Below are positions 3,036 to 15,444 of a DNA stretch of 27,414 bases, in pieces; position 1 is the first letter of the stretch; each line of letters opens with the position of its first letter. The notes under the pieces were generated by a model. The model worked only from the letters and a program-made list of their open reading frames with translations. It was not told the DNA's origin and ran no database searches. The position numbers were made by a program, and so were the translations under genes. The DNA lies in the IMG/VR virus record IMGVR_UViG_3300020159_003307, positions 1-27,414 of that record; one strand, 5' to 3'. This stretch comes from a virus.

Positions 3036-4325
3036 ATGTCAAAACAAGCAGGTAGAATGAGCCAGTCGGCTAATGACTTTTTAGAACCATTTAAGCCAAT
3101 CATTGGCACAGCAACAGATGTTGCAACAGGAAGAGCCTTTAATAATGGAGCAGCATCAGTTACATTTACAGATGCTCCAGACTCACCAGCAGCAACATCT
3201 TACACCGTAACTTCAACACCAGGATCTTTTACTGGAAGTGGAGCTTCTTCCCCAGTTACAGTAGAAGGACTTCAATCAGGAACCTCTTATACTTTTAAGG
3301 TCGTAGCATCTAACTCAGTAGGAAACTCACCAGAGTCAGATGCAAGCAATTCAATAGCAGCAACAACTGTTCCGCAAACACCTAGTGCGCCATCATTATC
3401 AAATAATGGGCAAGAGACAAATGCTGTCTCCTGGTCAGCCCCAGGCAGTAATGGCGGAAGCGAAATTACTGGATATGGGTTAATTGATCATGAAAATGAT
3501 GTTACGTCATACAACTCCAGTACATTCAGCGCCAACCTATCAGAAAATAGTAATGAAGTACAATGGGTAAAAGTAAGAGCTCAAAATGCTAATGGATTCT
3601 CAGAATACAGTAGCCAATCAAACTCAGTTACTACAACACCATTTAGCTTCAGCCCATTCGGATTTACTCCATTTGGATTCACTCCATTTGGATTTACACC
3701 ATTTGGATTTACACCATTTGGATTCACACCATTTGGCTTTACTCCAAAATCAGTTGGAGCAGAAACAGTTATTAAATCAAAGGTGCCAGAAGGATTAATT
3801 CTTGCACACAATTTAAGCGTTGGCGATGTTTTGTATTCTGCTAATATTGAGGGAATAGATGTTTCAAATACAGCAATAATAGAATATTTACAAAATTGGT
3901 CTGTCAATAGCGCAAACATATCCCCAGCCGAAACTACAATTGTTGCAATGGCAGCAAGAATTTCTGACGATGGAGCTATTGTAATTAATGGAAATAAATA
4001 TTCTTTACAACACTTTATTTTAATAAAAAGAGATGGACAGATTCAATTCCAACCAGCAGCAAATGTATTGGAAACAGATTTAATTTTTTCACCAAGCGAA
4101 AATGACTGGAAAGAAATCACAGACTATAAAGCAACTACACAAAAAGAGTTATTAATTTCTATAAATGTTGAACCTTATGACGTATTTTTTACAGATAACG
4201 CTTTAGTTCATGACTCTTATAATGCAGCATTAGATGAAAATGCATTGCTATCAAGCGATGAGACATTCTCAGATAAACTAGATGCAATGTATCAACAATG
4301 GAGAGATTCTCAAGACCAAGCCTAG
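3036..4325 (+). CDS. Fibronectin-III-like virion protein with a PFGFT repeat linker
   Basis: 429 residues. Residues about 45-110 and 115-200 look like two fibronectin type III domains: SGTSYTFKVVASNSVGNSPES is the typical strand F/G region of the first, and VQWVKVRAQNANGFSEYS closes the second. Residues 202-237 form a linker of one PFSFS followed by six exact PFGFT units and a final Pro. The remaining roughly 190 residues start with a segment typical of endosialidase-chaperone-free fibre ends (GLILAHNLSVGDVLYS) and end in an acidic helix-like tail. The SD AGGGGA (3022-3027) is 8 bases before the ATG. Such surface-exposed modules usually bind cell-surface polymers. The regular proline spacing may matter for the modifying enzymes encoded downstream (see findings). 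Confidence 0.8.
   Translation: MSKQAGRMSQSANDFLEPFKPIIGTATDVATGRAFNNGAASVTFTDAPDSPAATSYTVTSTPGSFTGSGASSPVTVEGLQSGTSYTFKVVASNSVGNSPESDASNSIAATTVPQTPSAPSLSNNGQETNAVSWSAPGSNGGSEITGYGLIDHENDVTSYNSSTFSANLSENSNEVQWVKVRAQNANGFSEYSSQSNSVTTTPFSFSPFGFTPFGFTPFGFTPFGFTPFGFTPFGFTPKSVGAETVIKSKVPEGLILAHNLSVGDVLYSANIEGIDVSNTAIIEYLQNWSVNSANISPAETTIVAMAARISDDGAIVINGNKYSLQHFILIKRDGQIQFQPAANVLETDLIFSPSENDWKEITDYKATTQKELLISINVEPYDVFFTDNALVHDSYNAALDENALLSSDETFSDKLDAMYQQWRDSQDQA
3639..3743 (+). repeat. Seven tandem 15-bp units encoding PFSFS + six PFGFT
   Basis: Each unit is CC-A-TT-T/C-GG-A/C-TT-T/C-AC-T/A, with synonymous changes between copies, starting at Pro codons 3639, 3654, 3669, 3684, 3699, 3714 and 3729 and followed by another Pro at 3744. 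The amino-acid sequence is exact in units 2-7 although the DNA differs, which suggests selection on the peptide. Confidence 0.95.
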
Positions 4326-4340
4326 CAGTCAGGAATTAAT

Positions 4341-4988
4341 TTGTTTAAAAAAGTAAAGAAATTACGTTTAATGGGAATTTCTGGAGTTAGGTATTTTAAA
4401 GGTAAGCCTGTACCTAAATTTAGAAGGTATCCACAGTACATAAAAGGTACTTGGGCACAATATACAGTGCTTACCGACAAATGGAATTCTCAAGCCATAG
4501 AATGTCTTTATAAAAATGATGATAATGAGTCTGGCACAATTGTTATGTCTTATTTTATTAACAACGATTACCCAGCATCTTGGGCTACAATAATTATAGA
4601 CGGATATGACAAAGATCACTATACTGCAATAACAGATAGGTTCTATACTAGCCCAATACATCGAAAGAAAAAGTACATAGAATCATTAGCTTTAATTGGA
4701 TATCCAATATGGTGTACATTTTTTAACATTTTACCAAGACTAGGCCCAGGCTATACACAAGGTACACAGGCTGTAGCATTAAGCGGATCTTCCCTCATAG
4801 CATCAGCAACTAAAAAAAGGTTTAATTTAAACAAAGATAAAATTGAAAAAATAGTTAAGGTTGGCATGACACCTGGGAAGCTTCCTGAAATAAATATGCC
4901 AGCAGAATTAGTTATATATAAAGATCCGATATTTCCAGCCTTGTTTCACTCTATGAGCATTTGGGAGCCAAATGATAAAAAATATTAA
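4341..4988 (+). CDS. Unknown 215-residue protein, first gene of the accessory cluster
   Basis: I do not recognise the family. The start is TTG, supported by AGGA (4331-4334) six bases upstream; the next in-frame ATG is 4371. The N-terminus is very basic (FKKVKKLRL), followed by a segment with several Trp/Tyr (KGTWAQYTV, then PASWATIIIDGYDKDHY) and a mainly hydrophobic middle (GYPIWCTFF). The alternation of strands and helices is vaguely like a small acyltransferase, but I see no acetyl-CoA loop, so no function is assigned. It follows the fibre gene by 15 bases and overlaps the next gene by 17, so it is probably co-transcribed with both. Confidence 0.75.
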   Translation: MFKKVKKLRLMGISGVRYFKGKPVPKFRRYPQYIKGTWAQYTVLTDKWNSQAIECLYKNDDNESGTIVMSYFINNDYPASWATIIIDGYDKDHYTAITDRFYTSPIHRKKKYIESLALIGYPIWCTFFNILPRLGPGYTQGTQAVALSGSSLIASATKKRFNLNKDKIEKIVKVGMTPGKLPEINMPAELVIYKDPIFPALFHSMSIWEPNDKKY

Positions 4989-5535
4989 TTCAATTAATAA
5001 TAATACTATGCTTTCCGAGTATAATAAAATGATCTCTCAGATGCACGAATATGTTTATAAATTCAATCCAGGAATTAAACTAGGATTTAAACCTAAAAAG
5101 GTTTCTTTAATTGATTATAAAACATTTAATTTTTTTGCAATGTACAATAAGAATATTCATATTTTGTACAAAGAAATATCTGATTTAACAAAAGAATATT
5201 GTATTCAAAGTGGAGTTAATTTTGAAAGAAATTATTTTTATTTACTAGGAAATATAATTAAAAAAGAAACTATTCCTCTAGATACATATGTAAATTTTGC
5301 TCCTAACTATAAAACTACATTTGTTGGTTTTTATGTTATAGATTGCAATAAAGATCAAATGTTTATAAATGATGAAAAAATTGATTTAATTCCTGGACAA
5401 TTAATATTTTTAGATTCATCATCAAAGATATTGTTTAAAACAATAAGTGATGGTTTAACAATGTTATCATTTAATATCTCTCCTTTAGAATATCTATATC
5501 GGCAGTACTATCAAAAATGGATTCCCCTAGCATGA
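4972..5535 (+). CDS. Degenerate 2OG-Fe(II)-oxygenase-like paralogue lacking metal ligands
   Basis: 187 residues. It aligns by eye with the proteins at 7704 and 8345: an IDYKTFNFF / NIHILYKEI segment near residues 47-70, a C-terminal SPLEYLY segment and a final KWIPLA (matching HWMPIC and KWIPFK). The HDH metal motif of the paralogues is replaced by IPLDTYVNF (101-109), and the distal GxPHAxG by SSSKILFK. The fold is probably kept but iron binding is not. It could be a structural or regulatory partner of the active paralogues, or a decaying copy, although the reading frame is intact. It overlaps its upstream gene by 17 bases. GGGAG (4963-4967) is a short-spaced SD. Confidence 0.65.
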   Translation: MIKNINSINNNTMLSEYNKMISQMHEYVYKFNPGIKLGFKPKKVSLIDYKTFNFFAMYNKNIHILYKEISDLTKEYCIQSGVNFERNYFYLLGNIIKKETIPLDTYVNFAPNYKTTFVGFYVIDCNKDQMFINDEKIDLIPGQLIFLDSSSKILFKTISDGLTMLSFNISPLEYLYRQYYQKWIPLA

Positions 5536-6251
5536 TTAAAATAGAATTTATTCCAAAATATAGGCTATATAAAAAAGCATTCCCAGAGCCAGTCAGTGTT
5601 TCGTCCAGTATACCAGAATGGTGGAAGCATCAAGAAAGTTATTTAAATAACGATCAAAATGTTCATAATGGAACAATGATGCTAACAATTAAAAAATGCC
5701 AATCTATATTCGATTCAATGACATTTGGATATTATTTAAAATGCCCAATGGATATATTTATAGATGCAACAGAAGATAAAATAAAAGTACAGGTAACATC
5801 TGAGATAATGGGAATGCAGAAAGAATATATTCTTTCAAGTCATTTAAAAGAGCAAATGGCCAAGTATCCCATCCCAGATTATTTTCACGAAGAAATTATT
5901 AGAATTCACCCAATGTGGTTAGTCAAAACAGAAGAAGGACACAGTTGTTTATTTACTTCTCCAATGCATGCAGAGGACTCCCCTATTAGATCTATCCCTG
6001 GAGTAATAGACACAGACGCTTACATGTCAGACGGATATTTATCTTTTTTTGTTAAAAAAGGATTTAAAGGAATAATTAAACAAGGTACTCCAATTATTCA
6101 AGTAATACCATTTAAAAGAGAAGACTGGGAAAGCTCAATAAGCGATGACAGGCAGTCAGATACTAAAATAAAAGAAAAAACTTTACAGGTTAGATCAGTA
6201 TTTCAAAATGGATATAGACTCAAATTTTGGAAAAAGAAAACATATAAATGA
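5532..6251 (+). CDS. DUF6065-like protein, copy A
   Basis: 239 residues from the chosen start. ATG 5532 forms an ATGA overlap with the upstream stop and begins MIKIEFIPKY, which lines up with ELIVKFTPGF of the paralogue at 6954; an ATG at 5517 would add five residues. Shared landmarks are IPEWWK (near 30), a Cys-containing KKCQSIFDSMTFGY (near 55-70), RIHPMWLVKT with EEGHSCLF, PGVIDTDAY, and IKQGTPIIQVIPFKREDW. The pattern fits the family I recall as DUF6065 in phages, whose function is unknown. The conserved His, Asp and Gly-Thr-Pro positions suggest a cupin-like barrel, but catalysis is not established. It overlaps the next gene by 4 bases. Confidence 0.7.
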   Translation: MIKIEFIPKYRLYKKAFPEPVSVSSSIPEWWKHQESYLNNDQNVHNGTMMLTIKKCQSIFDSMTFGYYLKCPMDIFIDATEDKIKVQVTSEIMGMQKEYILSSHLKEQMAKYPIPDYFHEEIIRIHPMWLVKTEEGHSCLFTSPMHAEDSPIRSIPGVIDTDAYMSDGYLSFFVKKGFKGIIKQGTPIIQVIPFKREDWESSISDDRQSDTKIKEKTLQVRSVFQNGYRLKFWKKKTYK

Positions 6252-6976
6252 TCAATAAGACAGTTAATAAAGTGCCATATGAAGCGGAATCGTGGTCTCT
6301 AATGTCAAAAATGACCTTTGAGCAAATATGTCATACCTCTAATTTATTTCCAAAATGGAAAGAATGGGAATATGTTAAATCTGATCCTGCCTATAAACAA
6401 TCAATTCTAAAACCAGTAAACATGTATGCCCATCATTTTTCTAACCCGCCAGAAATAATAAAGAATTCTAAAAATAGTTTAACAATTAGATATTATAGCT
6501 ACGGGGATATATTAATTCAAATAGCTGATCCGTTGCTAGGGCATAGGGGGGTATTCAAATCAAATCCAATTAATAGTTTTTTTTATGCAACCGATAAATG
6601 CTGGCTACGTCAATTTTACCCATCAGAAAATCAATATAATATTATAGATGAAAATGCAATTTCTAAAAGAATTTTTAAAATTTATATTCCTTGGTTTTTA
6701 GACATGGACATACAGTATTTAATTAAATGTAATATAGAAAATCCTTCACTAAAAATAATTGAAAAAAAAGATTCTTTTACAAAAACAGATGAAAATGTTA
6801 TAATAAAAGAAGCAAACTTTGTTGATTTTTATTTTACAAACTCTAAAAATCATATGGAAGACAATATTTGCGGGTTAATAAAAAGAGGTTCGTATTTATT
6901 TGATATAGAAATATATGCAGATAAAAAAACTATTAAAAAAATAATAAGGGAATATGAAAAAAGAATTAATAGTTAA
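6248..6976 (+). CDS. Unknown protein, possibly a remote DUF6065 relative
   Basis: 242 residues. ATG 6248 overlaps the previous stop as ATGA. Notable parts are a Trp/Lys-rich N-terminus (PKWKEWEYV), YAHHFSNPPEII near 60-72, IYIPWFLDMDI near 146-156 and a C-terminal block GLIKRGSYLFDIEIYAD. This block sits where the flanking paralogues have GIIKQGTPIIQVIP and GIIPKGTPLFQMIP, so all three may share a fold, but overall identity looks low and this link is inference. It is very AT-rich and overlaps the next gene by 23 bases. No catalytic motif is recognised. Confidence 0.65.
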   Translation: MINKTVNKVPYEAESWSLMSKMTFEQICHTSNLFPKWKEWEYVKSDPAYKQSILKPVNMYAHHFSNPPEIIKNSKNSLTIRYYSYGDILIQIADPLLGHRGVFKSNPINSFFYATDKCWLRQFYPSENQYNIIDENAISKRIFKIYIPWFLDMDIQYLIKCNIENPSLKIIEKKDSFTKTDENVIIKEANFVDFYFTNSKNHMEDNICGLIKRGSYLFDIEIYADKKTIKKIIREYEKRINS

Positions 6977-7703
6977 ATTTACACCAGGATTTTCAATTAA
7001 TCCCGATGACTTAAACAATGGACTAATTGTCGAGCCAGAAGAATCTAAAATTCATCTTCCAGATTGGTATAAAAAGCTTTCTAGATTTTATAAATCTAAT
7101 CACATTAGCAAGCTGCACCCAATTAATGATAGAGGAACCGATGGAAGCGCTGCTTCAACAAAATTATGCATGCCATTTTTTGACGCATTAACTTCTGGTT
7201 ACATGTATACCCTAGAATATGATTTACATGTAACTCAAGATAAAAACGGATTTCCAGTACTTTCCTGGGAAGGACACAACATGATAGTGGACAAAAGATT
7301 AATGATAGACGTCCCAGTCCCCACACAGCATCATCCATTACATTTTGGCTGGAAGGTAAACTGGTATTCGGAAACACCAAAAGGATATTCTTTATTAATA
7401 ACCCACCCATTAAATAGACACGATTTGCCATTTACCACCCTTAGCGGAATAATAGACTCCGATCTATGGCACACACCAGTATTTACATCCTTCTTCCTAA
7501 AAAGGAACTTTATTGGTATAATACCTAAAGGAACACCTCTGTTCCAAATGATTCCAATAAAAAGAGAAGAGTGGGCCTTGGAAATAGATTACTCAATTAA
7601 TGGAAAAGAAATAAATCAAATTAAAGATGAAAAAAGAAGGTCTTCAATCTATGCCTATTATAAAAATATAGTATGGCAACGTAAACAGTACAAGGGAAAA
7701 TAA
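6954..7703 (+). CDS. DUF6065-like protein, copy B
   Basis: 249 residues, clearly paralogous to the protein at 5532: LPDWYKKL (near 35), STKLCMPFFDALTSGYMY, VNWYSETPKGYSLLITHP, LSGIIDSDLW and IPKGTPLFQMIPIKREEW occur in the same order. The start lies inside the previous gene, with AAGGG (6946-6950) just before it. The next gene begins directly after its TAA. Function is unknown. Families of this kind occur beside 2OG-oxygenase-like genes in phages, as here; that general remark is from memory. Copies A and B differ mostly in the N-terminal half, so they may act on different partners. Confidence 0.75.
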   Translation: MKKELIVKFTPGFSINPDDLNNGLIVEPEESKIHLPDWYKKLSRFYKSNHISKLHPINDRGTDGSAASTKLCMPFFDALTSGYMYTLEYDLHVTQDKNGFPVLSWEGHNMIVDKRLMIDVPVPTQHHPLHFGWKVNWYSETPKGYSLLITHPLNRHDLPFTTLSGIIDSDLWHTPVFTSFFLKRNFIGIIPKGTPLFQMIPIKREEWALEIDYSINGKEINQIKDEKRRSSIYAYYKNIVWQRKQYKGK

Positions 7704-8351
7704 ATGATTAATAATATGCAAATGAATCAGCCAACAGGTAAAGAGCATAAATTTTTTGAAAGATATTTAGACAATGACCTAGGCCAATTAGCAGAGTTTT
7801 TACAGAACCAATATTCTAATATGGAAAACTTAAATCTGACTGGCATAACAAAGGTAACAGAAAAAGATCACTGGCTATCATCGGATAGCGTATCTACTAT
7901 AAAATGGAGAGAGTATAATGTTTTTCAATTTTATCACCCATCAATACATAAGCTATATAAAAACCTTGTAGAAATGGTTAAAGAAGCTTGCGAGTATTAT
8001 GAAGTTGATTTTGAAAAACAACAGTACATGATTCAAGGCTGGTTTAATATTAATTATAACGACAAAGGAAAGCTGGACTGGCACGATCACGGCGGACCCT
8101 ATGCCCCATATTTTCACGGATACTATTGCGTAAAGGCAGAGCCATCTACAACATATTATAAAGTTTTTGGTAAGCAAGTTGACAATTACAATAAAGACAA
8201 CAGGCTTATAATATCAGAAATGGGACATCCACATGCAATGGGGTCTTGGGACTGGGAAGGCCCTAGAGTAACAATTGCATACGATATAGTTCCATTAAAA
8301 AGTTTAATAGCAAATAAAGCACACCCACAACACTGGATGCCAATATGTTAA
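7704..8351 (+). CDS. 2OG-Fe(II)-oxygenase-like protein (HDH type), copy 1
   Basis: 215 residues. A double-stranded beta-helix pattern is visible: IQGWFNINY, then DWHDHGG (H127, D128, H129), FHGYYCVKAEPS, RLIISEMGHPHAMG (H175/H177) and PRVTIAYDIVPL (R188 as likely 2-oxoglutarate anchor). This resembles the putative 2OG-Fe(II) oxygenases of cyanophages (2OG-FeII_Oxy_5 type), where a Trp-His-x-His motif occurs. The substrate is unknown. The N-terminal roughly 100 residues are helical and shared with the next gene. It abuts the upstream stop without spacing and overlaps the next gene by 7 bases, so translation is probably coupled. Confidence 0.75.
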   Translation: MINNMQMNQPTGKEHKFFERYLDNDLGQLAEFLQNQYSNMENLNLTGITKVTEKDHWLSSDSVSTIKWREYNVFQFYHPSIHKLYKNLVEMVKEACEYYEVDFEKQQYMIQGWFNINYNDKGKLDWHDHGGPYAPYFHGYYCVKAEPSTTYYKVFGKQVDNYNKDNRLIISEMGHPHAMGSWDWEGPRVTIAYDIVPLKSLIANKAHPQHWMPIC

Positions 8352-8995
8352 ATAAACCACAAAAGTTTTTTGAATCGTACTTAAATAATGATACGCAAGA
8401 GCTATCAAAATATTTATATAAAATAAACGATGAAATTGTTAAAGAAAATGTTTTAAATTTATCTAATGAGGTTTTGGATAAATATAAAGATTTACCAGGC
8501 GCAGCAACAAAAATTGGAATAAATCATTATAATATTTTTATGTTTCCAAATAATGAAATATATAACCTATATTGTGAATTAAAAAATCTTACAAAAAAGG
8601 CATGTGAATATTATGAAATAGATTTTAATATTGAAAATTATGTAATACATGGTTGGTTTAATTTTGACTATAAGTCTATGGGGGACAAGGTTAATCCAGT
8701 AAAAAATCCAGAGCAACTTCATGATCATTTTGGAGGAACTGGCATACCACATTTTCATGGGTATTATTGTGTAGATGCCGAGCCATCTATAACATACTAT
8801 AAGCTAGACAAAAACAATAATGATTTATTTGAAAATGTTAATAAAAATAATAGAGCAATTATTTCCGAAACTGGCTACCCTCATGCTAGGGGAGATTGGC
8901 AACAAGACCAAGCAAGAGTAACAATTGCATATGATATTATTCCGTTTAGAGAAATTAGAAATAGTAAATCCATGAAATGGATACCATTTAAATAA
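8345..8995 (+). CDS. 2OG-Fe(II)-oxygenase-like protein (HDH type), copy 2
   Basis: 216 residues, a tandem paralogue of the preceding protein. Shared blocks are KKACEYYEIDF (84-94), IHGWFNFDY, LHDHFGG (H126, D127, H128), PHFHGYYCVDAEPS, IISETGYPHARGDW (H180) and ARVTIAYDIIPF (R191). An insertion near 110-124 lengthens the loop before the metal motif relative to copy 1. The ligand set is complete, so it is likely an active dioxygenase or hydroxylase. It starts inside the previous gene and shares its last base with the start of the glycosyltransferase gene; no clear SD is visible, consistent with coupled translation. Confidence 0.75.
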   Translation: MLNKPQKFFESYLNNDTQELSKYLYKINDEIVKENVLNLSNEVLDKYKDLPGAATKIGINHYNIFMFPNNEIYNLYCELKNLTKKACEYYEIDFNIENYVIHGWFNFDYKSMGDKVNPVKNPEQLHDHFGGTGIPHFHGYYCVDAEPSITYYKLDKNNNDLFENVNKNNRAIISETGYPHARGDWQQDQARVTIAYDIIPFREIRNSKSMKWIPFK

Positions 8996-9810
8996 TGGCA
9001 AATATTGGTATATGCATTTACAGCTATCAAAATAAAAATTTATTTAAAACTATATCTGAAATTATAGACAAATCTAGTCAAAAAAATATGTTATATTTTT
9101 ACATTATTGATCAAAATAGTGTAGACAGAACTAGATCTTTAGACCAACCAGATTTTTATGCATCAATTGTTTATAAATATGTTACATGGGATTCTATTAA
9201 AAGCCCAATTGAATATAAAAGAGATGCATTTAAGTCACTGAATAAAAAATATTATATGCAAATTGGAGACGATGTTTCATTAGCTAAAGATTGGGACATA
9301 CATGCAATTGAATTTTTAAATAGTAACAAAAAATCAATTTTATCTGGAAATTCTACAGTTACTTTAAAAAATAAAAATTGGTTTATGCTAGAGCCAGAAA
9401 GAGTGCCATCTGCAAATTTTAATAAAATAAATTATATAGACAGAAATTTTATATTTGCATTGTCTGAAGACTTTGCAATAATAAATCAACCAACCTACTT
9501 AAAATATTATGGAGAAGAAGAAAATATTTCAATAGACTTAATTAATAATGGCGTAGATATTTATAATTTCCCAGACGAATACATATCAATTAATAAAAAT
9601 TCAGTAGAGGATAAATATACCCCATTTTCTTTAACCCATAACTATAATCAATTTATTGAAAAATATTCAAATGAAATTCAAAAAAACTTTAATATAAATT
9701 TAATTCAGCTACCGTTTGAAGATAACGATGTTGCTTACGACACTGGCCAGTCTCAAATAGATAGAATGGGCGGATTAAGATATCTTGACAGGATTAAGGA
9801 GATCAGGTAA
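8995..9810 (+). CDS. GT60-like glycosyltransferase (Skp1 hydroxyproline GlcNAc-transferase family)
   Basis: 271 residues. The N-terminus (NIGICIYSYQNKNLFKTI) is the first strand and helix of a GT-A fold. KYYMQIGDDVSLAKDWD (85-101) matches the nucleotide-sugar/metal motif region of the GlcNAc family (YYLQID..M.f..gWD). YYGEEENISIDLINNGVDIY (171-190) matches the FxGEE...T.GYDxY segment characteristic of that family, known for adding GlcNAc to hydroxyproline of Skp1 in Dictyostelium. The family assignment is from memory of these motifs. The C-terminal 50 residues are not recognised. It is followed at once by two prolyl-hydroxylase-like genes (1-base overlap), which suggests it may glycosylate a hydroxylated proline. 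It is among the most AT-rich stretches (11 G/C in the line 9001-9060). Confidence 0.7.
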   Translation: MANIGICIYSYQNKNLFKTISEIIDKSSQKNMLYFYIIDQNSVDRTRSLDQPDFYASIVYKYVTWDSIKSPIEYKRDAFKSLNKKYYMQIGDDVSLAKDWDIHAIEFLNSNKKSILSGNSTVTLKNKNWFMLEPERVPSANFNKINYIDRNFIFALSEDFAIINQPTYLKYYGEEENISIDLINNGVDIYNFPDEYISINKNSVEDKYTPFSLTHNYNQFIEKYSNEIQKNFNINLIQLPFEDNDVAYDTGQSQIDRMGGLRYLDRIKEIR

Positions 9811-10352
9811 TGTTAATAAAAATAGTAGAAAATTTTATATCAGAACAAGATGCATTTTCTCTTATGGAAGAGATGCAATCGCCGTCAAAAATAAACCCGT
9901 ATCCAGAATATTATAAAGATAGAAACGGCGGAACTGCTTTCCCATATAATAATAGAGTGATGGATATACTTAAAAAATATTCAGTAAGAGCAAATCACAT
10001 TCAGAAAGAATTTTTTAACTTAAAAGACAGAGTAATTGTTACTAAGGCTTTTGGCTCGTGGTGGCAGCCAGGACAAAGTGGAAGTCCTCACATAGACGCA
10101 ATTGAAAAAGAACCATTCATAGAATATAGCACCGTAATTTATTTAAATGACGAGTACGAGGGCGGAGAGATATATTTCCCTAAACAAGCACTTTCTTTAA
10201 AGGCCAAAAAGTATTCTGCTATATTTTTCCCAGGAAATGATTATCAATATATTCATGGGGTTAAAGAAATTACTTCTGGCAGTAGGTACACAGCCCTATA
10301 TATGCAATCAACTAAGCAAGAGTTCGTAGACCCAGATTTTAAGGAGTGCTAA
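9810..10352 (+). CDS. Prolyl-4-hydroxylase-like 2OG-Fe(II) oxygenase 1
   Basis: 180 residues with a complete P4H-type catalytic core: SPHIDA (H94, D96), TVIYLNDEYEGGEIYFP (108-124, the hallmark strand after the metal motif), YIHGV (H149) and SRYTALY (R159, ten residues after the distal His, the 2-oxoglutarate-binding position). The length fits a minimal catalytic domain without substrate-binding extensions. AAGGAG (9796-9801) lies 8 bases before the ATG, the strongest SD in this cluster, so this protein may be made at a higher level than its neighbours. The reaction would be hydroxylation of a prolyl (or other) side chain using O2 and 2-oxoglutarate. The substrate is unknown. Confidence 0.85.
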   Translation: MLIKIVENFISEQDAFSLMEEMQSPSKINPYPEYYKDRNGGTAFPYNNRVMDILKKYSVRANHIQKEFFNLKDRVIVTKAFGSWWQPGQSGSPHIDAIEKEPFIEYSTVIYLNDEYEGGEIYFPKQALSLKAKKYSAIFFPGNDYQYIHGVKEITSGSRYTALYMQSTKQEFVDPDFKEC

Positions 10353-10354
10353 TA

Positions 10355-11008
10355 ATGCAATATCAAGAGTTGGCTTTAGGGGTTGTATATTATAAAAATA
10401 TTATAAAAGACCCCAATGAACTAATTAATAAAATAGAGTCTTTAGAAGAAAAAAGAAGCCTGCAAAAAGACTATAGGTCACAATCAGTAAAACCTTGGCA
10501 AGCATGGGACTATGATCATGGCAATAAAGAAAAAACAATATTTTGTTGGCAAAAATTTTTACCAAAGCCAGAGGACATAGATATTAATGATTATTTTTAT
10601 AAAGAACAACATGAGATATCTTCACAGCTTTTTAATGGACTGGAAGACGGGCTAAAACATTATTTTTCATTATACCCATATTCTGAAAAAAATATTAAAT
10701 CTAGAGAAAAAACAATGCATTTATTAAAATATAAAGAAAGCGGATTCTTACCAGCCCATTCAGATCATGGAATAAGCAGCAGAGTTTTATCAGCACTTCT
10801 TTATTTAAATGATGATTATGAAGGTGGCAATATAAGATTTCCGCATTGCGGAATAGACATGAAACCAGAAGCTGGAAGTCTACTGTTTTTCCCATCAAAT
10901 TTTGTTTACGTTCACGAAGTTGATGCGGTAACAAATGGAACAAGATATTCATTGCCAAACTGGTATCACAATAGAAAAAACGCATACTACTCAGACGGGA
11001 CAGAATAA
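10355..11008 (+). CDS. Prolyl-4-hydroxylase-like 2OG-Fe(II) oxygenase 2
   Basis: 217 residues. The start ATG 10355 is chosen because AAGGAG (10341-10346) is 8 bases before it; a GTG at 10346 overlaps the SD and is unlikely. Catalytic residues are AHSDH (H135, D137), the hallmark ALLYLNDDYEGGNIRFP (147-163), YVHEV (H187) and TRYSL (R197). An N-terminal extension of about 115 residues, absent in the preceding enzyme, contains several Trp/Tyr (KPWQAWDYDHG) and could bind substrate. It shares its last base with the start of the dehydrogenase gene. The two P4H-like enzymes are only moderately similar outside the core, so they probably act on different sites. Confidence 0.85.
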   Translation: MQYQELALGVVYYKNIIKDPNELINKIESLEEKRSLQKDYRSQSVKPWQAWDYDHGNKEKTIFCWQKFLPKPEDIDINDYFYKEQHEISSQLFNGLEDGLKHYFSLYPYSEKNIKSREKTMHLLKYKESGFLPAHSDHGISSRVLSALLYLNDDYEGGNIRFPHCGIDMKPEAGSLLFFPSNFVYVHEVDAVTNGTRYSLPNWYHNRKNAYYSDGTE

Positions 11009-11697
11009 TGATTATAGTAACTGGATCAAGCAGGGGAATTGGGAATGTAATAGCAAATAGGCTTTCTAAAAATGGATATGATGTCATTGGCATATCAAGA
11101 GGTATGCCTCAAAACGATGTATCTTTTAAAACTTATCAAGCAGACGTAAGCCAAAAAAATACCTTAAATCCAATATTTGAAGACTTAAAAGAAAAAAATA
11201 TTAGAGTAGAAGCTTTAATAAATTGTGCTGGAATATTAGAAACCCCATTTGTGGACTGGCTAACAATACAACAGGGCGAAATGGAATCAATATTTTCTAC
11301 AAACGTAATAGGAACAATGAATTCTTGTCAAACTTTTTTGCCATTAATGGACAAAAATCAGCATACTCCAATAATCAATATGGCAAGCTTATCAGCACAT
11401 GCAGTAACTGATTTTTCAATATATGGGGCAAGCAAGCATGCAGTATATGGATTTACAAAATCTTTAGCAAAAAAATTACAAAATACATCTATTAGACCAA
11501 ATTGCATATCACCAGGCCCAATAAAATCAACAATGACAGAGGGTATACCAGACATGGCCTTTAAGCTATTTGCTGGTTCACAAATTATTAACCGCACAGT
11601 TTTTACATCTGATGACATATGTAATGTTGTAGAGCTTTTGCTTGACCCAAGATCAAGTAGTTTAACTGGACAGGCATTCCACATTGGTGGATACTAA
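11008..11697 (+). CDS. Short-chain dehydrogenase/reductase (SDR)
   Basis: 229 residues, a complete classical SDR: TGSSRGIG cofactor loop (5-12; Arg9 favours NADP(H)), NCAG (72-75), N99, MASLSA with catalytic Ser (127), YGASK (Y139, K143) and PGPIKSTM (169-176). It is Rossmann-fold, cytosolic, and normally oxidises or reduces a hydroxyl/keto group. The substrate cannot be inferred from motifs; closest overall style is 3-oxoacyl-ACP reductase or sugar/steroid dehydrogenase. As the last gene of the cluster (TAATG overlap with the oxygenase) it may further process the product of the hydroxylases or prepare a sugar donor. The next gene has its own promoter right after this stop. Confidence 0.85.
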   Translation: MIIVTGSSRGIGNVIANRLSKNGYDVIGISRGMPQNDVSFKTYQADVSQKNTLNPIFEDLKEKNIRVEALINCAGILETPFVDWLTIQQGEMESIFSTNVIGTMNSCQTFLPLMDKNQHTPIINMASLSAHAVTDFSIYGASKHAVYGFTKSLAKKLQNTSIRPNCISPGPIKSTMTEGIPDMAFKLFAGSQIINRTVFTSDDICNVVELLLDPRSSSLTGQAFHIGGY

Positions 11698-11722: not shown

Positions 11723-13462
11723 ATGTCATACTCTTATAAAATACTAAAAGACCACCCAATTGGATTCTGGGAATTAGACGACTCTACTACCACAGCAATA
11801 GACATTTCTGGATGCGGTAATAATGGGGTATATACGGGAAGCCTTCCAAGCCAAACTAAGATAATGCCAATGGTTTCTGGAGGTCAATACTCAGCAAAAA
11901 TTACTTCATTGTCAAATATAGAGTTTGCAATTGTTAATGATTATTACGCACAAACAGAAGGAGGAGGATTTGGAACGCTAGACACAGCGGACAATGAATT
12001 TACGCTAGAGTGTTGGATTTTGCCAAAAATATCTTCTACAAACCTTACTCCCATTTTTATAGATTCTTCTAATGATCTTGGAATTGCTTGGCAAAACAAC
12101 AATATTATATTTGTTATTGGTACCGAAACTTTAGAGCACACAGTTCCAGAAACTAATAAATCTATTTATGTTGTATGCAAATATTCAGTAAATTCAGCAT
12201 CTATATATTTAGACGGAAACTTGGCCATTAGCAAAACAATAACTGGCATTCCTTTTGAAAATACACAGGTCTTGCTAAAGTCTGGTCCTACACAAAATAG
12301 CGGAGACGAGTTCTTAATAGATAATCCAGCAGTGTACAGGTACTCTTTATCAGAAAAACAAATTAAAGATCATTACCTAAGTAATCAAAATACCTTACCA
12401 ATACAGATTGCGTACCCAGACAATGGAGAGATTTTTAATATTTATGACAATGGAATGAGAACATCATTTACTTATAATTATCCAAAAGATAAATCTTGGG
12501 AATATTTTTTAACAGAGGATCTTACCCTAGGTAGGTCAGAAGAATATATTGAGTTATCCAAAACAGATTTATTAGAAACAAAAGAAGTTATTTTACAAGA
12601 TGTTATATCTATGCCCTCTGGAATATCAATGGATTCTTCAAAAATTCAATGGGATGGTAGCTCTGGAATTTCTGTTTATACAAGTCTAGACGGAGTGTCT
12701 TATGAACAATGCGAAAATGGATATTCAATACCACAATACAAATATTCAAATTTTAGCCAACAAAGATTTTTTCATTTAAAAATAGTAGTTTCTTCAACAG
12801 ACTCCTCTAAATATATTCCAAAACTTTATTCATTATCAGTAAATTTTTACTCTGAGCAAATAGCTTATTCTAAAAATGGAGCGTCTTATATTTATAAAAT
12901 AGATAACCTAGATTATAGCCTTGGCAAAGAGGTTTATCCAATATTATCAATGAATAAATTAAATGGCGTACTAGTACCAAATAATTCAGGGTTTAAAGTA
13001 GATCTTCCATATGATACAAATAGCATTGAGTTTTTCTATACTCCAAGCAGTATATTAAAAAGCTTATTAATATCATCTACTGGTACGGAATTTAGCTGGG
13101 CGGATAGCGGTTCTATATCAAAAACTAATATATCTAAAATATACGTAAATGGTGAAGATAAAACGGCACAATCAAATATATCTAATGTATTAAATTCAGG
13201 ATATTTAAATCATATTATAATTGTTTTTCAAGCACCCATATCTGGAGACTTGGTTTTTAATTATAAGAGTACTGGGTCCAAGAAAAGCTCATATCAGCAT
13301 ATAACCCTATATAGGGATGCTGTAGATAAAAACAAGGCAATAACCCATTACAATTTATATACTGGAAGATCAGTATATACCTCTGCCGCATCCGCCATGT
13401 CAGTGACAGAAGGATCTACTGAAATATATAATAATGACTGGATTGTTATTCAAAATTCATAA
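11723..13462 (+). CDS. LamG / concanavalin-A-like lectin-domain virion protein
   Basis: 579 residues. Residues 1-225 form a LamG-type jelly roll: the start ILKDHPIGFWELDDST with DISGCGNNGVYTG is the typical first strands, EFTLECWILP and ASIYLDGNLA are inner strands, and VYRYSLSEKQIKDHY is the common closing helix. Residues 230-579 are beta-rich with SKIQWDGSSGISVYTSLDG, resembling a discoidin/galactose-binding-like or minor tail segment. It probably acts as a glycan-binding adhesin or baseplate-associated minor tail protein. It lies between the accessory cluster and the head genes under its own leaderless promoter, apart from the other fibre genes. No signal peptide or enzymatic motif is seen. 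Confidence 0.8.
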   Translation: MSYSYKILKDHPIGFWELDDSTTTAIDISGCGNNGVYTGSLPSQTKIMPMVSGGQYSAKITSLSNIEFAIVNDYYAQTEGGGFGTLDTADNEFTLECWILPKISSTNLTPIFIDSSNDLGIAWQNNNIIFVIGTETLEHTVPETNKSIYVVCKYSVNSASIYLDGNLAISKTITGIPFENTQVLLKSGPTQNSGDEFLIDNPAVYRYSLSEKQIKDHYLSNQNTLPIQIAYPDNGEIFNIYDNGMRTSFTYNYPKDKSWEYFLTEDLTLGRSEEYIELSKTDLLETKEVILQDVISMPSGISMDSSKIQWDGSSGISVYTSLDGVSYEQCENGYSIPQYKYSNFSQQRFFHLKIVVSSTDSSKYIPKLYSLSVNFYSEQIAYSKNGASYIYKIDNLDYSLGKEVYPILSMNKLNGVLVPNNSGFKVDLPYDTNSIEFFYTPSSILKSLLISSTGTEFSWADSGSISKTNISKIYVNGEDKTAQSNISNVLNSGYLNHIIIVFQAPISGDLVFNYKSTGSKKSSYQHITLYRDAVDKNKAITHYNLYTGRSVYTSAASAMSVTEGSTEIYNNDWIVIQNS

Positions 13463-13469
13463 ATTGTCC

Positions 13470-13494
13470 GTCATAATGACAAAATGTGGACATT
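13470..13494 (+). promoter_or_regulatory. Two adjacent short palindromes, possible operator
   Basis: GTCATAATGAC (13470-13480, 5-bp arms) and AATGTGGACATT (13483-13494, 5-bp arms) lie in the gap between the LamG gene and the next gene, 13-37 bases upstream of the -10 box at 13507. There is no T-tract, so a terminator is less likely than a protein-binding site. Confidence 0.35.
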
Positions 13495-13506
13495 AATTAG
13501 AAAGAA

Positions 13507-13515
13507 TGGTAAAAT
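13507..13515 (+). promoter_or_regulatory. Probable extended -10 promoter, leaderless or nearly so
   Basis: TGGTAAAAT, one mismatch from TGnTATAAT, ends nine bases before ATG 13525. No SD is visible between it and the start codon, so the transcript would have at most about three leader bases. Confidence 0.5.
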
Positions 13516-13524
13516 TAACATCTA

Positions 13525-13860
13525 ATGGATATTAAAAGAGTTAATCAGAGCGTAATAGAAGAAACTACGCTAGGAATTTATGTGTGGGAAATGCCAGACG
13601 GGCGCTGGATAGGCGATGATGACGGTAACTTTTTATCTGTGACTTCCATAAAAGGAAATCGTTCAAAAATGAATATATTGGCAGACGCTGTTAGATCTTA
13701 CGGTATATACGAGGGCTCACCAAAATTTTTATCAGGACGAAGAAAAATTGACGACGAAGAGTTCCAGCACCAAAAACAAAGACTAGAGTGGGGACTGACA
13801 CCAGATCCTCTTGACATAGGTGTTTACAAAGATTCATTAAAAAGCGGAGGCAGACAATAA
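13525..13860 (+). CDS. Unknown small protein upstream of portal
   Basis: 111 residues, unrecognised family. The N-terminal half has an aromatic/Gly/Asp-rich motif (YVWEMPDGRWIGDDDGNF, 19-36), then NRSKMNILADAVRSYG helix (46-60) and a charged C-terminus with many Arg/Lys (RKIDDEEFQHQKQRLEWG). It is soluble, with no membrane segment. It ends directly before the portal ATG and contains the portal SD (GGAGG 13846-13850), so the two are co-expressed. A role in packaging or portal assembly is suggested only by position. The terminase usually found here is missing. Confidence 0.7.
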   Translation: MDIKRVNQSVIEETTLGIYVWEMPDGRWIGDDDGNFLSVTSIKGNRSKMNILADAVRSYGIYEGSPKFLSGRRKIDDEEFQHQKQRLEWGLTPDPLDIGVYKDSLKSGGRQ

Positions 13861-15444
13861 ATGGAGTTTATGAACGAAGAGTCTAGTGTTTCAGAAACTA
13901 TTGACATATCAAATTCCGCAGACTGGATAAAGTTTAATAATAAAGAGGTTGTGATAAACAATGATCCATTTAGCATTGAAGGCGAAGAGTTAAAAAAAGT
14001 TAATGGATTAAGTCCAACATTCCGTAGAAAAATATCTAGAGAGTTTCAAAAACGTTTTGTAGGACAAGAAGGAACTGGAACACAACAGAATCTACTACAA
14101 CAAGCAGTTACTGGATATGCAATGTTCGACCTTGTTCAACCAGTTTATAACCTAGAATATCTTTCAAAAATTTATGAGATATCTCCGTACAACTACTCAG
14201 CAATTAATGCAAAGGTTGCTAACATTGTTGGCCTTGGATATTCTTTTGTAGAAACAAAAAAAGCTAACGATGCTTTAGATAATATTACCGACAAAAAACA
14301 ATTAGAACGTGCTCGTCGCAAATTGAATAAGCTTCGTCAAGATTTAGATTCTTGGCTAGAGGAAACAAACGAAGAAGAAACCTTTACAGAAACATTAGTA
14401 AAAGCCTACACAGATTTAGAGGCTACTGGTAATGGATATATTGAAATTGGAAGAACTGTATCTGGCAACATTGGGTACGTAGGACACATCCCATCCAAGA
14501 CAATGCGTGTACGTAGACTTCGTGATGGCTTCATACAACTTCTTTACGGCAAGGCAGTTTACTTTAGAAACTTTGCAGATCAAGAAACTCCTAATCCAAT
14601 TTCTGGAGGAGAAGATCGTCCAAACGAAGTTATTCATTTAAAGAAATATACACCGATGAATAACTACTACGGAATACCAGATATTATTGCCGCACAAACT
14701 GCAATGGCTGGAAATGAATTTTCTGGAAAATATAATTTAGATTACTTTGAAAACAAAGCGGTACCACGATATATTATCACAGTAAAGGGTGCCAAGCTTT
14801 CACCAGAATCTGAACGTAAACTATTAGAGTTTTTCCAGGTTGGGCTAAAAGGAAAGAATCACAGATCACTTTACGTCCCCCTTCCAGCGGATACATCTGA
14901 CTCTAAAGTTGAATTTAAAATGGAGCCTATTGAGGCAAACCCACAAGAGTCCTCATTTAATATATATCGAAAAGCAAATAGAGATGAAATTCTTTTAGCA
15001 CACAGAGTTCCAGTAAATAAAATTGGAGTTCCAGAAGGAGTTAGCCTAGCATCAGCAAGAGATGCAGACAAGATGTTTAAAGAGCAAGTATGTAGACCAG
15101 CTCAAGATATTTTAGAAAAGAAAATAAATAGAATTATTTCTGAAAAAACAGATGCATTAATGCTTAAATTTAATGAATTAACCCTAACAGATGAAGACAC
15201 TCAGTCTAAAATTGATGAAAGATATTTAAGAATGCAGGTAATTACTCCTAATGAAGTTAGAATTAGAAAGGGTATGATACCTATGGATGGTGGAGATGAG
15301 GTTGTTGATTTGCAGGCACAAGCAGCCGAAATCAAGGCCCAGGCGTTAAATACCAGAAATAGAACTCAGGAAAGATCGGCCAATTCACCAGATAGTTCTG
15401 GGGAAGCCAGAAATCCAAAAGGTGAGGGTAGAGTCACAGCTTAA
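13861..15444 (+). CDS. Portal protein
   Basis: 527 residues, HK97/PBSX-type phage portal family. Landmarks are the N-terminal helix region with TGYAMFDLVQP, ISPYNYSAINAKVANIVGLG (clip/wing entry, near 110-130), DLEATGNGYIEIGR (near 180-193), EVIHLKKYTPMNNYYGIPDI (near 256-275) and the helical stem LLAHRVPVNKIGVPEG (near 378-393). The C-terminal 60 residues are Gln/Ala-rich and disordered. It forms the dodecameric ring at the capsid vertex for DNA entry. GGAGG (13846-13850) is ten bases before ATG; an in-frame ATG at 13870 is an alternative. A terminator follows. Confidence 0.9.
   Translation: MEFMNEESSVSETIDISNSADWIKFNNKEVVINNDPFSIEGEELKKVNGLSPTFRRKISREFQKRFVGQEGTGTQQNLLQQAVTGYAMFDLVQPVYNLEYLSKIYEISPYNYSAINAKVANIVGLGYSFVETKKANDALDNITDKKQLERARRKLNKLRQDLDSWLEETNEEETFTETLVKAYTDLEATGNGYIEIGRTVSGNIGYVGHIPSKTMRVRRLRDGFIQLLYGKAVYFRNFADQETPNPISGGEDRPNEVIHLKKYTPMNNYYGIPDIIAAQTAMAGNEFSGKYNLDYFENKAVPRYIITVKGAKLSPESERKLLEFFQVGLKGKNHRSLYVPLPADTSDSKVEFKMEPIEANPQESSFNIYRKANRDEILLAHRVPVNKIGVPEGVSLASARDADKMFKEQVCRPAQDILEKKINRIISEKTDALMLKFNELTLTDEDTQSKIDERYLRMQVITPNEVRIRKGMIPMDGGDEVVDLQAQAAEIKAQALNTRNRTQERSANSPDSSGEARNPKGEGRVTA

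Follow-up and report, generated by a model that had tools for sequence, protein, structure and literature searches.

Could a tailed phage hydroxylate, and perhaps glycosylate, the prolines of its own fibre? The question is raised by a locus in which the initial annotation recognised a GT60-like glycosyltransferase and two prolyl-hydroxylase-like enzymes encoded in one overlapping run, and proposed that they form a hydroxyproline glycosylation pathway, with a nearby fibre carrying PFGFT repeats as a possible target. The window, meaning the whole stretch of DNA analysed here, consists of the 27,414 bases of IMG/VR record IMGVR_UViG_3300020159_003307. It comes from a freshwater tailed phage and covers its structural region, with genes for fibres, portal, protease, major head protein and tape measure. 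The portal, about 57% identical to those of Streptomyces phages, suggests an actinobacterial host.

A conserved cassette between the fibre and LamG genes

Eleven tightly packed genes were found between the fibre gene and a LamG-domain gene (Table 1). The three reading frames of the supposed pathway (271, 180 and 220 aa) are indeed present as one run, with overlaps of 1-7 bases, and the PFGFT repeat is found in the fibre as described, in six copies. About 30 related contigs share this gene order, with 36-96% identity of the glycosyltransferase-like protein, and purifying selection acts on every gene tested (dN/dS 0.02-0.22). Synteny down to such identities, together with selection, indicates that the block is not a chance arrangement.

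Table 1. Features of the fibre-LamG region, in window coordinates
Position	Strand	Feature	Evidence or remark
3036..4325	+	Fibre protein with FN3 domains, (PFGFT)6 and a C-terminal domain in which Hint/intein-like motifs were seen by eye	fn3 E 6e-11
3654..3743	+	Six PFGFT units, proposed substrate	Same amino acids in every unit, codons varied at the third position
4341..4988	+	Cassette gene without Pfam match	
4972..5535	+	Oxygenase-like protein of the 7704/8345 family, similarity weak, probably degenerate	Distal H not apparent
5517..6251	+	phrog_7084 / DUF6065-like protein	
6248..6976	+	Conserved cassette protein, function unassigned	
6954..7703	+	Second phrog_7084 / DUF6065-like protein	Also in most multi-P4H cassettes that have no GT
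7704..8351	+	2OG-oxygenase-fold protein, HDH...H...R invariant	AF2 and Foldseek
8345..8995	+	Paralogue of 7704, same fold family	
8995..9810	+	GT-A fold, GT60-superfamily homologue, altered metal site G91-D92-D93	AF2, Foldseek, hhalign
9810..10352	+	P4H-type 2OG-Fe(II) oxygenase 1, H94/D96/H149/R159	phrog_61 E 1e-19
10346..11008	+	P4H-type 2OG-Fe(II) oxygenase 2, H138/D140/H190/R200	PF13640 E 4e-16; GTG start, ATG at 10355 possible
11008..11697	+	Short-chain dehydrogenase, lacking in some relatives	PF13561 E 3e-39
11723..13462	+	LamG-domain structural protein, bounds the cassette site	PF13385 E 8e-12

In the fibre, the domain that follows the repeats (3744-4325) resembles a Hint/intein domain, with a Cys or Ser start, a VGD block and a VHD/VHN-like end, as it does in the fibres of two other contigs (L278 and L087). 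These motifs suggest self-processing of the fibre; searches of Pfam and of PDB sequences did not confirm the domain.

The oxygenases

Judged by their DSBH domain, HxD...H triad and basic 2OG residue, the proteins encoded at 9810 and 10346 are P4H-type 2OG-Fe(II) oxygenases, as the initial annotation had it, but the cassette contains at least four oxygenase-fold genes rather than two. The four residues named for the 9810 protein are all invariant in 13 relatives. This protein has no Pfam match of its own, and one of its relatives matches PF13640 (E 3e-8); its best solved relatives are bacterial P4H (3itq/5hv0, E 4.5e-5), and its family aligns to that of the 10346 protein (E 8.5e-16). The latter has prolyl 3-hydroxylase 1 as its best solved relative (E 2e-6). 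Its active-site set is present and invariant among relatives, but the numbering first given (H135/D137/H187/R197) counts from the in-frame ATG at 10355 and not from the GTG at 10346 used in Table 1. Peptidyl-proline is the putative substrate of both enzymes, the evidence for it being the co-occurrence with fibre repeats described below.

The proteins encoded at 7704 and 8345 are of a second oxygenase type, and the HDH...H...R residues are invariant in both. The model of the 7704 protein (AF2 pLDDT 81, pTM 0.83) matched 2OG oxygenases in Foldseek (2rg4, 3bvc, PHD and PHD2; E 2e-4 and up), while a PDB sequence search with its profile gave no useful match. Among cultured phages, the 9810 and 10346 proteins find cyanophage oxygenases at low identity only, and tblastn detected no homologue of either the 7704 protein or the glycosyltransferase-like protein. 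In Synechococcus phage S-SCSM2R (L042, 11314-19347), 2OG oxygenases are found with several glycosyltransferases and with aminotransferase-like, radical SAM and amidinotransferase genes in one mixed sugar/amino-acid cluster.

The glycosyltransferase-like protein

Structure prediction followed by Foldseek, the check proposed in the initial annotation, gave a GT-A fold for the 8995 protein (AF2 pLDDT 82, pTM 0.82, from an alignment of 17 relatives). The best 50 PDB matches are all ppGalNAc-T of family GT27 (E about 1e-10, TM about 0.65), and the high-ranking matches among viral models include phage proteins named 'Glycosyltransferase, GlcNAc'. Homology to GT60 comes from profile comparison: the family profile matches over its full length that of canonical phage PF11397 proteins, in which D91 and H93 of the DxH metal motif are invariant (hhalign prob 97.4, E 1.5e-11), whereas the reversed and 20 shuffled profiles reached prob 2.3 at most and unrelated profiles also failed. 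The direct match to PF11397 is weak (E 8e-4, 19.3 bits) and below the cut-off of 21. A PDB sequence search with the family profile gave no useful match, and no cellular homologue was found in a scan of genome contigs.

The two segments singled out as GT60-like, residues 85-101 and 171-190, do align with the GT60 regions QLDSHHRF..WD and HGEEISIA.RAYT.GYDLF.P, but the canonical DSH is replaced by GDD. In the second segment, GEE is retained, while R and T of the GEE...R..T.GYD pattern are changed to D181 and N184. Relatives have GDD, DGD, EDD, GED, SDD, GDN, GDG, GDK, SDG, TPGT or SPNS at the metal site, several of them with no acidic residue. H215 and Y217, invariant in the family, may represent the distal metal histidine motif H-x-Y. 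The T. cruzi GT60 enzyme and ppGalNAc-T (GT27) share superfamily or fold with this protein and act on polypeptide acceptors, but their DxH metal site is intact. From these alignments the protein is a GT60-superfamily homologue; strict GT60 membership was rejected since the DxH site is absent. With the metal motif altered here and missing in some relatives, it is a putative transferase.

Two tandem copies of a GT-like gene lie between 7704-type and 8345-type oxygenases in one contig (L092, 2431-3953). One PFGFT phage (L178, also G012) combines a GT60 protein of the canonical kind, with DSH, and a P4H-type gene, the two lying some 4.6 kb apart (7871-8746 and 13312-13983).

Oxygenase genes follow the fibre repeat

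Co-occurrence of the enzyme pair with proline-repeat fibres in related phages, also suggested in the initial annotation, was examined in 35 contigs with related portals, compared at the fibre-LamG site. The site has three states in these sisters: a GT cassette, 5-7 P4H-type genes with no GT, or neither. Neither PFGFT repeats nor a full GT match are found outside two of the 35, the ones with the GT cassette, and a third (G075) has a weak GT-like match. In the P4H-only sisters the fibre repeat is (FF[SAG]PPx)n or (FPFFPPY)n. All 18 sisters with a P4H cluster and the fibre in view have an aromatic-proline repeat fibre, against none of 14 with no cluster. Those without a cassette have large fibre-like ORFs at the site with no aromatic-proline repeats; two contigs that lack P4H clusters (L271, L274) have collagen-like GPx repeat proteins there, and VTPP repeats occur in one that has just one P4H-type gene. 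The portal tree implies 4 changes of the repeat and 6 of the P4H cluster, with 3-4 concordant and 0 discordant independent pairs (p 0.125, too few pairs for significance alone). Switches between GT with PFGFT and P4H-only with FFxPPx number 4-5 and are always coupled, the PFGFT state being set equal to the GT state in this count, as the two are identical in those rows.

DUF6065-like phrog_7084 proteins, shared with haloarchaeal tailed viruses, recur in both cassette types, and the neighbours of halovirus DUF6065 genes that we examined gave no clue to their function. In two contigs (L263, L273), proteins of 208-303 aa made nearly entirely of FPFFPPY-type repeats with a Cys/Gly-rich tail precede the P4H clusters.

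Across IMG/VR, the first 50 contigs of at least 15 kb with FFxPPxFFxPPxFF were compared with 50 contigs carrying collagen-like GPT repeats. PF13640 is found in 50/50 of the former (48 over the cut-off, mostly 3-10 copies) and in 11/50 of the latter (Fisher 8e-18); the FFxPPx contigs are not fully independent, their fibres forming 9 C-terminal clusters at 40% identity, and the control may differ in habitat. A P4H-type gene lies within 6 kb downstream on the same strand at 43/46 FFxPPx loci and at 3/35 GPT-repeat loci. The HxD/E...H...R/K residues are kept in 206 of the 208 P4H-type ORFs near FFxPPx repeats versus 188 of 1120 other ORFs. P4H-type genes are thus associated with aromatic-proline repeat fibres. 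The GT family gave a single weak match in these 50 contigs, and P4H-type genes that accompany FFxPPx fibres without any GT indicate that hydroxylation would not depend on glycosylation.

The 30 contigs related to the 9810 oxygenase all contain the GT family, its gene being adjacent or nearly so to that of the oxygenase in nearly all carriers. The PFGFT repeat is present in all 25 that reach the fibre gene; the other 5 end before it. A scan of IMG/VR for two consecutive PFGFT units found 75 stretches in several fibre types, mostly followed by a similar C-terminal domain. Outside the 9810-related set, 39 PFGFT contigs include 10 with the GT family, 20 with PF13640 and 21 with the 7704 family, some contigs perhaps being partial. 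Two of over 40 kb each (G020, G026) have no GT, P4H or 7704-type genes, so the PFGFT repeat can occur without these enzymes. Three contigs (L084, L102, L136) encode two unlike PFGFT fibres each, one being a 917-922 aa protein of a different type.

Possible roles of the cassette

We suggest, with moderate confidence, that the oxygenases hydroxylate the aromatic-proline repeat of the phage's own fibre and that the GT60-like protein then acts on PFGFT. The 9810 and 10346 enzymes, perhaps with those of 7704 and 8345, would hydroxylate prolines, or neighbouring residues, of the FN3 fibre's repeat before virion assembly; in the PFGFT branch, the 8995 protein would then attach a sugar to that repeat, either at hydroxyproline or at the neighbouring threonine. 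That the fibre repeats are the target of the hydroxylases is most likely. The glycosyltransferase would be an add-on of PFGFT phages, which may glycosylate hydroxyproline or threonine, or may be inactive. Threonine is the acceptor type of other GT60/GT27 enzymes, and as PFGFT has one before each next-unit proline, it is as plausible an acceptor as hydroxyproline. Of the pathway first proposed, the hydroxylase side is supported by genes that track aromatic-proline fibres, but the hydroxyproline-glycosylating side is weakened by the lost DxH site, by the alternative acceptor and by the FFxPPx phages that have no GT.

A doubtful but credible alternative is that the oxygenases modify the fibre while the 8995 protein, a GT-A relative, has lost catalysis or does not glycosylate and instead, for example, binds the repeat or serves as its chaperone. 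The replaced D and H ligands, with TPGT or SPNS in some relatives, speak for this, as do P4H clusters kept in GT-less sisters and a constraint on the GT (dN/dS 0.14-0.19) weaker than on the oxygenases (0.04-0.13). However, W100, D101, G173, E174, H215 and Y217 are retained in the close family, the window copy keeps D92 and D93, and metal-independent GT-A enzymes are known; purifying selection indicates that the protein matters, but says nothing on transferase activity.

It is unlikely that the fibre and oxygenase genes merely travel together as a block, with enzymes acting on host proteins (as a bacterial P4H hydroxylates EF-Tu), surface glycans or small molecules. The genes do adjoin at a site where content is swapped, so that part of the co-occurrence could result from joint transfer, and PFGFT contigs devoid of the enzymes exist. 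The linkage, however, holds for three unlike repeats (PFGFT, FFxPPx and FPFFPPY) and across the 9 clusters of diverse fibres; it is not seen for the non-aromatic GPT-repeat fibres, nor are aromatic-proline repeats found in the fibre-like ORFs of cassette-less sisters. Modification of DNA, in which TET/JBP-like oxygenases would hydroxylate a base for the GT to glycosylate, was rejected as highly improbable. Phage systems that combine TET and GT are known, and the 10346 protein has a faint Tet_JBP match (E 0.004), but its 16.9 bits are far from the cut-off of 34.9 and PF13640 fits it far better. The genes also lie between fibre genes, their presence tracks the repeat type, and the predicted GT fold is closest to polypeptide glycosyltransferases, a resemblance that we counted in favour of modification of the fibre.

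Comparison with known systems

In the literature searched, mostly papers free of subscription, we found no account of a phage system that hydroxylates prolines of fibres. The Skp1 pathway of Dictyostelium and Toxoplasma performs prolyl hydroxylation and glycosylation with PhyA and Gnt1, a GT60 enzyme, the family that also includes the T. cruzi polypeptide GlcNAc-transferase (PMC6939170). Both systems have a P4H-type oxygenase and a GT60-superfamily protein, and the Skp1 glycosyltransferase acts on hydroxyproline; unlike the phage, with its repeat fibre, at least four oxygenase-fold genes and a GT with no DxH, Skp1 modification concerns one site of one soluble protein. In mimivirus, L230 and a collagen glucosyltransferase hydroxylate and glycosylate collagen (PMC9546862), so that a virus uses its own hydroxylase and glycosyltransferase on virus-encoded repeat proteins, and putative enzymes of both types are encoded here. 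There, a lysyl hydroxylase acts on collagen in a eukaryotic virus, whereas here prolyl-hydroxylase-like genes accompany aromatic-proline repeats in a tailed phage. Mycobacteriophages, as far as their virion glycosylation is described in an article citing the original study (Freeman et al. 2023, cited in PMC11256854), likewise use phage glycosyltransferases to place glycans on virion proteins, but that account concerns capsid proteins and includes no hydroxylase step.

The cyanophage 2OG-Fe(II) oxygenases (phrog_61) belong to the same superfamily as the P4H-type genes of the cassette. Such oxygenases abound in the genomes of aquatic phages, in most cases with no substrate assigned, and their co-occurrence with FN3-(aromatic-Pro)n fibres gives a large group of these enzymes a candidate. 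If this is correct, tailed phages post-translationally hydroxylate proline in their own fibres, and one branch perhaps glycosylates them; the stiffness, adhesion or protease resistance of the fibre could change as a result. We tentatively propose that a large group of tailed phages, known mostly from metagenomes, carries its own banks of P4H to hydroxylate proline in aromatic-proline fibres and that the PFGFT branch adds a sugar through a divergent GT60-like enzyme, which would make this a counterpart, in phages, of the way collagen or Skp1 matures.
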